Below, piece after piece: positions 15,185 through 19,583 of a stretch of 64,000 nt of DNA. The stretch is from Pseudomonas sp. 21 (GTDB lineage Bacteria > Pseudomonadota > Gammaproteobacteria > Pseudomonadales > Pseudomonadaceae), in NCBI RefSeq assembly GCF_000955805.1, contig NZ_JYOA01000004.1:181406-245405 (forward strand), written 5' to 3'. The number at the start of each line of letters is the position of its first letter. Within the stretch, counting starts at the first letter, position 1. The notes under the pieces are model-generated. The model saw only the letters and a program-made list of their open reading frames with translations. It was not told the DNA's origin and did no database searches. Both the position numbers and the translations under genes were made by a program.

Positions 15185-15394
15185 TCAAGGCGCTGCGCTG
15201 AGCGCCCAGGTGATGGCACAGAGAATCAGCACGAACAGCGCACAGTCGAACAGCGCCTCGTGCCAGATCCAGCGCCCGAAGGGGGTGGCCTGCAGCAGCA
15301 GGCGCAATACGACCGTCAGGCCCAGGGCGAGCACCGCATAGATGAACAGCGGGCTCAGGAACACTCCGCCCCAGCCGAACTCATGCAGTCCCAT
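15185..15394 (-). CDS. DUF1656 membrane protein (AaeX-like)
   Basis: Protein of 69 residues with two membrane helices, starting MGLHEFGWGGVFLSPL, typical of the DUF1656/AaeX family that accompanies FUSC-HlyD efflux pairs. It overlaps the end of the FUSC gene by 14 bases and is followed by the adaptor gene 13 bases later, so the three form one operon. A longer upstream extension of the frame is only a shadow of the FUSC gene. Confidence 0.9.
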   Translation of the reverse strand: MGLHEFGWGGVFLSPLFIYAVLALGLTVVLRLLLQATPFGRWIWHEALFDCALFVLILCAITWALSAAP

Positions 15395-17369
15395 TGGTGT
15401 CCTCCAGACGGCACCACTGGCGCCAGGTATGACGCAATTGCGCCAGCGCGGCGCGGGCCAGGCGGTTGGGTTCGTTGTCACCCTGCAGATCGTGCGCGAG
15501 GGCTTCCTCCAAAGGCGGGCAGAGGCTATCCAGGCGTTGCTCGCGCCCGCCTCCGGGCCCTTTTTCCAGCACGCTGCCCAGCGCACCGAGGAACTGGTCG
15601 CGACGCTTGCGCAGTTGCCCCTGCGCTCCGCTGAGGCAGGAGCGCAGATGGATCAGTTCGTTACCCAGGTCCAGCGCCAGCAGGCCGTCCTGCCAGCGCT
15701 TCTGCTCTTCCCTGGGCAACAGGGTGTAGTGCCGCGCCAGGCGGATCAGGCGGTCCGCCATGCGCCCGCCGAACCAGCTCTCGGCTTCGGCCAGCGGCCG
15801 TCGGGTCAGGCGCCCGAGGTCCTCGCAGGTGGCCTGGATCAAGCGGCGGTTGAGCCAGTCCGCCGGCAGGGTGAGCAGGCGGAACACCAGCACCGCGAAG
15901 CCCACGCCGATGACGATGCCCTGGGCGGAATTGAGCAGGTTGGCGAGGTCGTACTTCATCACGTTGCTCGGCGCCACCAGGGTGATGAAGTGGATCGAGA
16001 AGGACGTCGCCGTACCCGCCAGCGCCGGCGTGGCCATGCCCAGCAAGGCGAAGAACAGCGGTACGCCCAGCGCCAGGCAGAGCAGCGGGAAGCCGTTCCA
16101 TTGCGGCAGCAGCCATTGGCTGACCACAGCCGCCGCCGGGATCGCATAGAGGATACCGCGCAGGAAGCCCAGGCCGATGGTGACGGCGTTGTCGCGGTTG
16201 GCGAACAGGCTGCAGATTACCGCCGCCAGCAGCATGCCGCCGGTGGCCGCCGGCCAGGCGGTCGCCATCCAGAAAGCCGACATGCCCAGCAGCGCCAGCG
16301 CGCTGCGCAGGCCGTAGAACAGCGCCATGAGCCAGTCGCGGTGCCAGGACAGCGTGCCGGTGGCGACATCGTCCACCCGCCCGTCCGCCACCGCGCGCAT
16401 GGTCTTCTCCGAATTCAGCGCCTTGAGCAGCAGCAGCGCGCAGCGGGTCAGGCAGTAACGCAGGTCGTTGGAGTAGCTGTCATCCAGGCCGGCCTCCTGC
16501 AGGCGCTCCTGCAGCGAGCGCATGGCGTCGACCTGCGGGTCCTCCAGGGTGGCTCGCAGCTCTTCGAACCAGGGTTGCAGGCGCGCGCGGTCCTCGGCAT
16601 CCAGCACGCTGCGCTGGCGGGCCACACCGCGCGCAGTGCGCAGCAGGCTGAGCAGGTCGCGGGAAAGAATCCGCAGCGCGCGCGAGCGCATCCGGCCGCG
16701 GTAACCCTCGAACCAGGCGTGATCACGCTGCACATCGACTTCGACGATCTTGCCCAGCGCCTGCAACAGCCCCTTGATCTGCCGCGCGTCGGCATCGATC
16801 TCGCTGCGCGCAGCCTGCATGCCGGTGAGCCAGGTGGCATGGGCCTGCTTGCCCAGGTTGGCCTCGACCCGACGCGGCCAGAGGATGGCACTGACCGCGG
16901 AGGCACAGAGAATCCCCAGGCAGATTTCCGTACTGCGCGCCACGGCCTGGTCGAAGACGTCCAGTGGGTGCGTGATCGCCGGCAGGCCGATGATCGCCAC
17001 GGTGTACCCCGACAGCACGAACGCATAGGACACGTGGTTGCGCAGGCTGGTCGAGGCCGCGGTGCAAAGGCCCAGCCAGAGCGAGATGGCCAACAGGAAC
17101 AGCCAGGGCGTCTGAGCGAACAGCGCTATGAACACCACCGACATGGCCGTACCGAACAAGGTACCGATCAGGCGGAAAAGACCCTTGGCCACCACCATGC
17201 CCGACAACGGCTGGGACACGATGAACACCGTCATCAGCGCCCACTGCGGCTGCTCCAGGTCGAAGCGGAAGGCGCACCAGAGCGCCAGGCCACCGGCCAG
17301 GAGGGTCTTGATCGCGAATTTCAGCGCCAGCGTATCCGGCGCGAGGAATGCCTGAAGCGTAGGTCGCAC
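15381..17369 (-). CDS. FUSC family (AaeB-like) efflux transporter
   Basis: Inner-membrane protein of 662 residues with two blocks of about five to six hydrophobic helices (about 13-165 and 345-490) separated and followed by soluble helical regions, the fusaric acid resistance/AaeB layout. The likely role is proton-driven efflux of aromatic acids with the adaptor and DUF1656 protein encoded downstream. The start is GTG at 17369. A promoter with a palindromic operator lies about 75-100 bases upstream (17444-17472), suggesting ligand-induced expression. The exact substrate is unknown. Confidence 0.92.
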   Translation of the reverse strand: MRPTLQAFLAPDTLALKFAIKTLLAGGLALWCAFRFDLEQPQWALMTVFIVSQPLSGMVVAKGLFRLIGTLFGTAMSVVFIALFAQTPWLFLLAISLWLGLCTAASTSLRNHVSYAFVLSGYTVAIIGLPAITHPLDVFDQAVARSTEICLGILCASAVSAILWPRRVEANLGKQAHATWLTGMQAARSEIDADARQIKGLLQALGKIVEVDVQRDHAWFEGYRGRMRSRALRILSRDLLSLLRTARGVARQRSVLDAEDRARLQPWFEELRATLEDPQVDAMRSLQERLQEAGLDDSYSNDLRYCLTRCALLLLKALNSEKTMRAVADGRVDDVATGTLSWHRDWLMALFYGLRSALALLGMSAFWMATAWPAATGGMLLAAVICSLFANRDNAVTIGLGFLRGILYAIPAAAVVSQWLLPQWNGFPLLCLALGVPLFFALLGMATPALAGTATSFSIHFITLVAPSNVMKYDLANLLNSAQGIVIGVGFAVLVFRLLTLPADWLNRRLIQATCEDLGRLTRRPLAEAESWFGGRMADRLIRLARHYTLLPREEQKRWQDGLLALDLGNELIHLRSCLSGAQGQLRKRRDQFLGALGSVLEKGPGGGREQRLDSLCPPLEEALAHDLQGDNEPNRLARAALAQLRHTWRQWCRLEDTNGTA

Positions 17370-17490: not shown

Positions 17491-17518
17491 AAAAAAAACG
17501 GGCGACCTAAGTCGCCCG
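17491..17518 (-). terminator. Rho-independent terminator of the phrS/ccoM transcript
   Basis: Stem CGGGCGAC-CTAA-GTCGCCCG (17499-17518) followed, on the minus strand, by eight U (17491-17498). It ends the short Anr-controlled transcript. Confidence 0.93.
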
Positions 17519-17551
17519 AAGTGCCTTGCGTGCTCTGTGACTCTGTAAGGA

Positions 17552-17662
17552 TCAGCTCTTCTTGTGGCTGTCCTTCCAGATGAAAATTCCGACCCCGCCG
17601 AAGAAAACAACCATCAGTCCGACGGTAAGGATGCCTGCGAGAACCACTTCGTCGATGAACAT
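17552..17662 (-). CDS. ccoM: CcoM-like cbb3 oxidase small subunit
   Basis: Tiny single-helix membrane protein of 36 residues: MFIDEVVLAG, a hydrophobic stretch of about 20 residues (about 7-29), then FIWKDSHKKS. It resembles CcoM, the small subunit that stabilises cbb3-type cytochrome c oxidase in P. stutzeri. The start at 17662 has a perfect AGGAGG 8 bases upstream. It is the only reading frame of a short Anr-controlled transcript, which fits a role in low-oxygen respiration. The family assignment is from memory of the CcoM sequence pattern; the translation signal itself is unambiguous. Confidence 0.8.
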   Translation of the reverse strand: MFIDEVVLAGILTVGLMVVFFGGVGIFIWKDSHKKS

Positions 17663-17704
17663 GATGCTGGCCTCCTGTTGCCTACATCGTCTGGGGATGT
17701 GTGC

Positions 17705-17710
17705 AGATTA
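17705..17710 (-). promoter_or_regulatory. -10 box of the Anr-dependent phrS/ccoM promoter
   Basis: TAATCT on the minus strand, centred 31 bases downstream of the centre of the Anr box at 17732. That is the spacing of a class II FNR/Anr promoter (box at -41.5), and it predicts transcription starting near 17697. Confidence 0.65.
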
Positions 17711-17731
17711 CCGGCGGCCGGGCAGGACAAA

Positions 17732-17745
17732 TTGACCTGGGTCAA
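17732..17745. promoter_or_regulatory. Anr/FNR box (proximal)
   Basis: TTGACCTGGGTCAA, a perfect half-site pair for Anr (TTGAC-N4-GTCAA). It is centred at about -41.5 from the predicted phrS/ccoM start. Confidence 0.85.
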
Positions 17746-17781
17746 TATTGGAAGCCCTGGATACCCGCGAATAAATATAAA

Positions 17782-17795
17782 TTGATATAGATCAA
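17782..17795. promoter_or_regulatory. Anr/FNR box (distal)
   Basis: TTGATATAGATCAA, the canonical Anr/FNR/Dnr sequence. It lies 50 bases upstream of the proximal box and about 150 bases before the glycosidase gene on the other strand, so it may serve either direction. Confidence 0.8.
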
Positions 17796-17945
17796 AAAAC
17801 GAATAGCCAAGGCCCAATGCAAACACAGACCCACAAACCTACAGATATCTCCCACAAAGAAAATGAGCGTTTCAACTTTAAAAAGTAAAACTATCAGCGG
17901 AAAAATTATTTATATATGGGGAACGACATCAATCGAGAACTGCAC

Positions 17946-19244
17946 ATGCGAACACTGAACATAAACACCCTAGGCAAAATCACCTTCGCCATCTCGATGG
18001 CCATGGCAGCCACCGACCATGCTTGCTCAGCTCCAAGCATACAAACAGAGTACGGTTTCACTGCGCACATTGGGGACAGAAGCACAAACACTCAGGAAAG
18101 AATCTCGGCTCATCGCCGTATGATTGACGAACTTGCCAAGAACGATGTCAAGTGGCTACGAATCGGAGTTGACATTGCAATTACAAAATACAACTCACCC
18201 ACCAGCATAACCTTCAACGAAGAAGACTGGACGCCTGCAGTTGAAATCTACAACTATGCGCTAGCCAAAGGCATGAAAGTATTCTTCACGGCCTACCCAG
18301 CCTATGAATTAAGAAAGCTAAACCTCTCAGAAAGTGACTTTCTAAAATCTGTTAACTTTCAATTCTCCCGACTCGCCACGAAATTCCCAAAAGCTGAAGT
18401 ATGGCAAATTTACAACGAGGCTAACCATGCATATAAAGACGACTACTCACCTGTATGCAACCATACAGACTTCACCTGTAAAAACGGTCAAGCCGTTTCC
18501 GTCTCTGATAGCTACATGAACTCTTTAAGAAACACAATTTCTACTGCAAAAAACGCTATAAGGTCCATAAACCCAACCGCAAAAATCACAACCAATGCGG
18601 CAGGAGGTGACGCCTACGCGCAACTCTACATGAGCAAACTAGAGGGAACTCTAGACATATTTTCCTTTGACATATACCCTGACGAGTATGATCACCAACA
18701 AAACTTCACAAGCTTCAAATCAACGTTGAGAACACTCAACAACAAGTACGGCAACAACTTCTGGCTAGTTGAAACAGGAAAGCCATCCAGCACGGGCGCG
18801 TGCAATACCGAAAGCACAGCGCACACCGCTGAACATAAAAAATTTCTTGTAGATTTAGTGCCCGCCATCGCCGAAGAGAAAGTAACCCACGCACTTTTCT
18901 ATGAATTCAGAGACCGCGACACCTCATGGATAGCAGACTGCGAAAAGCACTTTGGAATAATTGATAGGCATGACCTACAAAAGCCAGCCTACAAATCGCT
19001 GCTAGAGCAAATGAAACTGTTCGCCTACATGCCAATCAATAGTGACTCAGCCAAAAACAGCCAAGCTCTCTCCCGGCTTAATCAAGCATTCCAAACATCC
19101 TTTGGACGACCGCCTTCAACTTGGGAGGCATACAATACAAATTACGACGGATGGTTAAGAACGGTCGCATCCAATAACAACTCATATGACGACATAGTAA
19201 ACACAAATAAATACTGGCTATTCAGCCCTGAAGGAGCCAATTAA
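17946..19244 (+). CDS. Secreted clan-A glycoside hydrolase, truncated by in-frame TAA
   Basis: A 432-residue product with a signal peptide (cleavage near residue 29) and a TIM-barrel glycosidase of clan GH-A type: acid/base Glu158 in IYNEAN and nucleophile Glu276 in WLVETG. The remote resemblance is to GH39/GH5 enzymes that cut polysaccharides; the family is not fixed. After residue 374 comes one copy of a repeat (AFQTSFGRPPSTWEAY). The frame then meets TAA at 19242-19244 but continues open for 101 codons with two more repeats, so the original protein was longer. ATG 17946 has GAGA upstream; ATG 17916 is possible. Base composition is far more AT-rich than all neighbours, indicating transfer. 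Confidence 0.8.
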   Translation: MRTLNINTLGKITFAISMAMAATDHACSAPSIQTEYGFTAHIGDRSTNTQERISAHRRMIDELAKNDVKWLRIGVDIAITKYNSPTSITFNEEDWTPAVEIYNYALAKGMKVFFTAYPAYELRKLNLSESDFLKSVNFQFSRLATKFPKAEVWQIYNEANHAYKDDYSPVCNHTDFTCKNGQAVSVSDSYMNSLRNTISTAKNAIRSINPTAKITTNAAGGDAYAQLYMSKLEGTLDIFSFDIYPDEYDHQQNFTSFKSTLRTLNNKYGNNFWLVETGKPSSTGACNTESTAHTAEHKKFLVDLVPAIAEEKVTHALFYEFRDRDTSWIADCEKHFGIIDRHDLQKPAYKSLLEQMKLFAYMPINSDSAKNSQALSRLNQAFQTSFGRPPSTWEAYNTNYDGWLRTVASNNNSYDDIVNTNKYWLFSPEGAN

Positions 19245-19550
19245 AGGTCAGAAGTAATCAAAAGATCTTACCAAGCGACATTTGGCCGACAACCAACAAC
19301 CCACGAAATTAGTGGATGGAGCAGCACCAACTTTATAAATTACGCACAAATACTTAAAAATCATCGGGAATGGTTATCTACCCAAGAAGCTAAAACTGAA
19401 AGAGATGAAACCATTAAGCGTTCCTATCAAGCAATACTCATGCGTCAACCTTACCCCTCAGAATTAGCAAGCTGGGGGGCAGGCCAAGCTACAACCTTTG
19501 ATGACATGGTGGAAAACCACCGAAACTGGCGGGACTACAACGAAAAATAA
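19245..19550 (+). pseudogene. Detached C-terminal repeats of the glycosidase
   Basis: Immediately after the TAA at 19242 the same frame stays open to TAA at 19548-19550. The 101 residues contain two repeats of about 50 residues, beginning IKRSYQATFGRQPTTHEI and IKRSYQAILMRQPYPSEL, and each ending near H-R-x-W. They match the repeat before the stop (AFQTSFGRPPSTWEAY). The pattern recalls DUF4214-type surface repeats. There is no start codon or ribosome binding site, so it is the severed tail of the upstream gene unless the stop is read through or is a sequencing error. Confidence 0.8.
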
Positions 19551-19583
19551 AAATATCAATATATGGACTTCACGCCGCAGCCT

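Follow-up and report, generated by a model that had tools for sequence, protein, structure and literature searches.

The phrS locus in our window (the whole 64-kb stretch of DNA that was analysed) yields, with high probability, a single RNA of about 207 nt under Anr activation, from which two separable products arise: the cbb3 oxidase subunit CcoM and a trans-acting element, creg. The same reading holds that ccoM and its Anr promoter are older than the family, that creg was added in the Pseudomonadaceae, and that the ORF has been lost or cut about six times. The original prediction, that this transcript is both regulatory and coding, is supported on sequence evidence.

In P. aeruginosa, PhrS is described as Anr-controlled (PMC6700203, PMC9308961, PMC12101431) and as associated with Hfq (PMC8545117), and sizes of 213 nt for the PAO1 RNA and 37 aa for its peptide are printed in PMC9308961. 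A search of the window with the PhrS covariance model (RF01673) bore out the predicted identity of the RNA, returning a full-length match (1-212 of 212) on the minus strand (17698-17491) at 173.6 bits against a gathering score of 37, with an E of 4.2e-43 in 64 kb. Strong matches over the cut-off were likewise found in all 25 genomes of the genus; one of these genomes (G014) held an additional weak RNA match below the cut-off. We treated this match as chance, together with a second weak match in G051 and the model matches in genus g12 (G035, G059); all of these were left out of the loci examined, while g12 was still counted among the genomes without creg. A further genome, G033, carries besides its main PhrS match a weaker PhrS-like one some 700 bp away (L154; 35.2 bits, below the cut-off). 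A PhrS match alone proves no regulator, because a ccoM locus outside the family that carries no creg (L360) also passes the gathering score at 56.5 bits, and three of the five ORF-less loci that were scored (L157, L159, L156) fail it; we therefore rejected the model match as proof of regulation. To judge by these scores, what the covariance model recognises is largely the ORF. Folding of the complete transcript was unremarkable relative to shuffles (z -1.31) and so uninformative as evidence for an RNA.

The features of the locus are collected in Table 1. The claim of two perfect Anr boxes was confirmed: the window contains just these two TTGAYNNNNRTCAA sites, both on the minus strand and at the promoter, against 0.07 expected, and two such sites were reached in none of 100 shuffles of the window. 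The centre of the proximal box lies 41.5 bp from a start at 17697, which is class II spacing, with the distal box 50 bp further up. A -10 at this spacing had also been proposed. The placement of the box relative to 17697 held, and the hexamer itself was read by eye and is not reported by a consensus promoter scan, which requires a -35. The remaining parts of the predicted transcript were found as described: a 36-codon ORF preceded by AGGAGG, with 8 nt between this motif and the ATG, and an intrinsic terminator, the distance from the predicted start at 17697 through the terminator agreeing with a transcript of about 207 nt.

Table 1. Features of the phrS/ccoM locus, in window coordinates.
Feature	Position	Strand	Basis or remark
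Distal Anr/FNR box TTGATCTATATCAA	17782..17795	-	by sequence; centre -91.5
Proximal Anr/FNR box TTGACCCAGGTCAA	17732..17745	-	by sequence; centre -41.5, class II
-10-like hexamer TAATCT	17705..17710	-	read by eye
phrS/ccoM transcript	17491..17698	-	Rfam PhrS RF01673; predicted start 17697-17698
Shine-Dalgarno AGGAGG	17671..17676	-	sequence
ccoM, 36 codons, cbb3 oxidase subunit CcoM	17552..17662	-	NF041600, 5djq_N, pN/pS
creg element GCACGCAAGGCA	17522..17533	-	18 nt past ccoM stop codon
Intrinsic terminator, 8-pair stem + T8	17491..17518	-	stem 17518-17499

Across the family, a perfect TTGAN6TCAA lies within 330 nt upstream of creg at 128 of 129 scored loci. The DNA between and above the two boxes of the window is unlike that of any of five relatives compared, and the distal box nevertheless stands at the equal 50-bp spacing in these relatives despite dissimilar surrounding DNA; a perfect distal box at this spacing in unrelated sequence looks as if it had been regained. 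GC-poor DNA (43.5%, compared with 64.8% for the window) extends to the phrS promoter (17746-17800, 17780-19560) and contains a glycoside-hydrolase-like gene (17916-19244, plus strand). In the other direction, phrS is followed by a FUSC gene (15381-17369, minus strand), close to the 3’ end of which lies a match to the Rfam P18 sRNA (RF01671; 15236-15370, minus strand; 76.8 bits against a gathering score of 60).

The peptide had been predicted to resemble CcoM, and both comparisons made here agree. The 36-codon ORF scored 74.9 bits against the NCBIfam equivalog NF041600 CcoM (cut-off 40) and aligned end to end, over 36 of 36 residues, with PDB chain 5djq_N (E 9.2e-14). The PDB listing names this chain ‘Putative uncharacterized protein’; we take 5djq to be the P. 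stutzeri cbb3 structure and its chain N to be CcoM. A Pfam search with the peptide gave no match. In P. stutzeri, CcoM is described as a 36-aa subunit of the cbb3 oxidase (PMC10433244). One genome, G146, encodes an ORF whose 36 letters are identical to 5djq_N inside a PhrS match of 158.9 bits, and the known ccoM therefore itself appears to be a PhrS-type locus. From the other side, G012 has a 213-nt PhrS match and a 37-codon ORF, whose peptide scored 77.6 bits against the CcoM model; since these sizes equal those printed for PAO1 PhrS, we place G012 in the P. aeruginosa group. A CcoM search of the window’s genome found no second match beyond the ORF in phrS, and each of the 25 genomes of the genus had one CcoM match, in every case over the cut-off and inside the strong PhrS match.

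We compared the first 30 codons of the window ORF with those of 131 others (the 132 ORFs comprising those of the 128 CcoM-bearing family genomes described below and four more of the genus). The median pS was 0.60 and the median pN 0.147, with pN/pS below 0.5 in 130 of the 131 comparisons; the ratio of means over all 8646 pairs was 0.289. By these substitution patterns the ORF is under purifying selection.

We scored CcoM and the cbb3 gene ccoN in a family sample of 148 genomes from 19 genera. With CcoM counted as present at E <=0.001 (128 genomes, 127 of them over the cut-off) and ccoN at E <1e-50 (the gene being counted as absent in five genomes whose match had an E of 1e-6 to 1e-8), 126 genomes had both, including the window’s own (G000) for ccoN, 2 had CcoM alone, 4 had ccoN alone and 16 had neither. 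The association gave a Fisher p of 6e-16, a value that ignores kinship: of the 16 genomes with neither, 11 belong to one genus. Four genomes (G026, G048, G068, G069) have ccoN without a CcoM match, so some owners of a cbb3 oxidase seem able to do without CcoM. Two genomes without ccoN (G105 and G115; loci L137 and L139) keep a diverged CcoM ORF, at 38.9 (below the cut-off) and 41.8 bits respectively, together with an exact creg, which suggests a decaying or re-used peptide.

The second part of the transcript lies between the ccoM stop codon and the terminator, where creg is mostly unpaired in the predicted centroid fold. From its place and conservation we take GCACGCAAGGCA to be creg, for which a position downstream of the ORF is given in PhrS (PMC9308961). 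A PhrS-model match with an examined locus was obtained for 146 of the 148 family genomes (exceptions G050 and G069). Searching these loci for creg with a T-run behind it, we found it exact in 121, variant in 16, weak in 1 and not at all in 8; the variants comprised 15 in genus g5 (GCTCGCAAGGCC or near) and one in g7, and the loci where it was not found were six of g5 and two of g12. Among 125 contexts selected for an exact creg, so that its own 12 columns are invariant by construction, 23 of the 25 columns preceding the element had a majority base at 0.31-0.66, the last two columns before it stood at 0.81 and 0.62, and two of the eight columns after it were invariant. A core-anchored count over 136 loci again gave the creg block as the most constant. 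In genus g5, CcoM was kept in 21 of 21 genomes, creg being altered in 15 and not found in 6. As far as these alignments go, creg is conserved independently of the ORF, and the two are not inseparable.

The converse separation was found in genomes that have no CcoM match anywhere, which number 20 of the 148. Sixteen of them retain an exact creg, a terminator and an Anr-like box: eleven in g6 (which we take to contain the P. oryzihabitans group), G033 and G048 in g10, G036 in g13, G068 in g14 and G026 in g3. Those without creg are three g12 genomes, whose weak model matches are chance-like, and G069. In ten of the g6 loci the unit is reduced to an Anr box followed, after about 41 bp, by a 5’ hairpin, creg and a terminator, and measures 68-74 nt from the predicted start; all ten have the FUSC gene downstream and co-oriented, as it is in the window. 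This synteny held in 12 of 25 loci compared, and for the ORF-less G068, G036, G026, G099, G048 and G033 the 3-4 kb examined gave no FUSC match. Short units occur elsewhere too, in G068 (72 nt) and in G026 (104 nt, its box having one mismatch), and longer ORF-less units of 181 to 270 nt in G036, G099, G033 and G048. The 5’ hairpins are of unrelated sequence between lineages. Five short ORF-less RNAs folded better than their shuffles, with z of -2.72 to -5.40, values that are not evidence for the 5’ hairpin alone because the terminator was included.

Traces of the peptide remain in several of these loci. G099 has a decayed ORF followed by an intact creg; G048 has a CcoM remnant of 22 codons (23.5 bits, under the cut-off), and G033 a 22-codon frame in the same place. 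Since these 22-codon frames persist, ‘cut short’ is, for the g10 ORF, more exact than ‘lost’ as a reading of the sequence. On an rpoB tree of 30 genomes, ORF state takes 6 changes over 29 rows (g12 excluded), and grouping the nine ORF-less rows as a single clade was rejected (p-AU 0.001). The backbone of this tree is largely weak; G068, G036 and G099 each stand beside an ORF-bearing genome on starred branches. We read the six changes as probable losses because CcoM occurs outside the family. Taken with the conservation described above, the coding and RNA parts are, on comparative grounds, separable and separately selected, as a dual-function sRNA should be.

In a survey of the order, 82 of 293 genomes had a CcoM match (over the cut-off in 74), spread over 37 of 117 genera. 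Of the genomes with a match, 69 lie outside the family, and we examined the loci of 50 of these. An Anr-like box with at most one mismatch lay within 160 nt upstream of ccoM in 48 of these 50 (perfect in 38), and an exact creg within 300 nt past the ccoM stop in none of the 50, one locus having it with two mismatches. Anr-controlled ccoM therefore appears to predate creg. Because ccoM occurs outside the family without creg, and ORF-less loci within it keep creg, PhrS looks like an element acquired in the 3’ UTR of a ccoM mRNA that already existed, and set free from it more than once afterwards. Other motifs were seen by eye before the terminator in ccoM 3’ UTRs of two outside families: GCGCTGAGTACC-TTGCCT in 4 of 11 loci of f35 (L364, L366, L369, L370), and GTCAGGGGAGGGGG in 6 of 6 loci of f33 (L382-L387). 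It is as if ccoM mRNAs had gained different 3’ elements in different families.

Three other readings deserve consideration. The transcript could be the ccoM mRNA and nothing else, with the PhrS model matching by way of the ORF and regulation being a peculiarity of P. aeruginosa. The passing score of the creg-less locus outside the family (L360, 56.5 bits) is what such an account would lead one to expect. However, creg lies outside the ORF, and an mRNA-only account gives no reason why 121 of 146 family loci have it exactly, why it is exact in 16 of the 20 genomes lacking CcoM, or why ten of the latter retain little besides Anr box, 5’ hairpin, creg and terminator; we regard it as very unlikely. 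Those ORF-less loci raise a related doubt, that creg persists in them by chance or as part of the terminator rather than as a regulator. The terminator does follow directly after creg, and two of the eight columns behind it are invariant as well, but creg stands outside the stem of the terminator, and all 12 of its positions are unchanged in 16 loci from five genera even as the upstream columns drift and the 5’ hairpins are of unrelated sequence. Persistence of this kind we hold to be unlikely.

The peptide, in turn, might resemble CcoM and do another job: it might be a regulator, for example, or its reading frame might serve only to protect the RNA. Similarity arises easily between short peptides of one helix, two genomes have the ORF but no ccoN, and regulation of CRISPR by PhrS in P. 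aeruginosa is stated to be independent of the ORF (PMC6700203), all of which would suit a peptide unconnected with the oxidase. Resemblance by chance accords poorly, however, with an ORF of a PhrS locus (G146) that is letter for letter identical to 5djq_N, with a score over the cut-off of a curated equivalog model (NF041600), with a single CcoM match in each of the 25 genomes of the genus, and with the joint absence of ccoN from 16 of the 20 CcoM-less genomes, and we judge this account the most improbable of those weighed here. We accordingly retain the reading in which one RNA yields both CcoM and creg.

In the mechanism that we propose for that RNA, a fall in oxygen would lead Anr to activate the promoter; ribosomes would make from the ORF a one-helix cbb3 oxidase subunit, CcoM; and creg, a mostly unpaired 12-nt seed in the 3’ untranslated part, would pair with target RNAs, Anr thereby supplying an oxidase part and a trans-acting regulator together. 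In its history, ccoM with its Anr promoter would precede the Pseudomonadaceae, creg would have joined the 3’ UTR within the family, and the promoter, creg and terminator would have stayed through each of the roughly six losses or cuts of the ORF. For the window’s organism, we infer transcription, translation, cbb3 assembly and RNA pairing from these sequences.

In P. aeruginosa, creg is reported as required for regulation of pqsR and of the CRISPR leader (PMC9308961, PMC6700203). That an RNA acting on quorum sensing should be the mRNA of an oxidase subunit fits the published PhrS of P. aeruginosa, and both identities pass curated models; the quorum-sensing part of the claim may need broadening, as the conservation of creg across the family suggests a role wider or older than pqsR. 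A 2025 review lists cyoAB as lowered by PhrS (PMC12101431). Of 30 chosen genomes, 16 had a cyoA match above the cut-off. The best duplexes of creg with the 17 cyoA 5’ regions of these genomes (G068 contributing two) were weak, scattered and differently placed, and do not support cyoAB as a conserved target; indirect control of cyoAB by PhrS may still be compatible with this result. Exact 11-mer complements of creg numbered 38 sites in 10 genomes, the one in G012 being PhrS itself. Among the 30 complement sites with a locus, 10 were PhrS, and the other 20 never lay beside related ORFs in two genomes. Two perfect complements in G145 (L330, L349) fall 26 nt inside ORFs and encode LNALRAFE, presumably the start motif of LysR-type regulators; these are possibly a target class, and possibly chance.

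The window locus resembles P. aeruginosa PhrS: the model matches over its full length, the size agrees, and an Anr box, a short ORF within the RNA, creg downstream of that ORF and a terminator are all present. The setting differs, since most genomes surveyed here belong to other species; pairing with pqsR and the CRISPR leader is reported for P. aeruginosa. Its peptide resembles P. stutzeri CcoM in length, end-to-end alignment, equivalog score and co-occurrence with ccoN. The dual-function RNAs SgrS/SgrT, RNAIII and VcdRP likewise combine a peptide and a base-pairing part on one transcript; unlike in those systems, the peptide here would be one of the structural subunits that make up a respiratory complex, the seed is placed in the 3’ UTR of an mRNA that looks older, and several lineages have the RNA part with no ORF. 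Bacterial sRNAs derived from 3’ UTRs are a known class, with which this locus shares a regulatory element placed between the stop codon of an mRNA and its terminator. In contrast to them, the ORF-less lineages would need no processing, as the Anr promoter would make the short RNA directly.

Excerpts from earlier papers describe the PhrS peptide as an unnamed protein (PMC5521070, 2017), as of unknown function (PMC8672173, 2021) and, for the 37-aa form, as having a function yet to be elucidated (PMC9308961, 2022). Among the literature matches listed for PhrS, CcoM, cbb3 and dual-function RNAs, the portions seen made no CcoM-PhrS link and tied the ccoM mRNA to no regulatory RNA, primary papers lying outside that scope. 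Annotation pipelines may already call the ORF CcoM, because NCBI has its own family model. PhrS has been studied in depth as an sRNA of an important pathogen. Naming its peptide CcoM makes the function directly testable. Strains deleted for phrS may also lack an oxidase subunit, and some published phenotypes could for that reason be respiratory.

The larger finding, as the genomes compared here present it, is the separable RNA half that is kept without the peptide in several lineages. Seed, promoter and terminator retained after loss of the ORF amount to a natural separation-of-function experiment in several lineages, and the minimal ORF-less RNAs allow conserved targets to be searched for without the coding part. 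On balance, though with less assurance than for the two products of the transcript, we favour a history in which PhrS began as a 3’-UTR element of an oxygen-regulated oxidase-subunit mRNA in the ancestor of the Pseudomonadaceae, its peptide being the cbb3 subunit CcoM. The RNA half would then have come free on about six occasions, leaving in one genus no more than Anr-driven RNAs of 68-74 nt, with the 12-nt seed unchanged even where there is no cbb3 oxidase; PhrS would be an ancient low-oxygen regulator, of which the quorum-sensing target is one local use.
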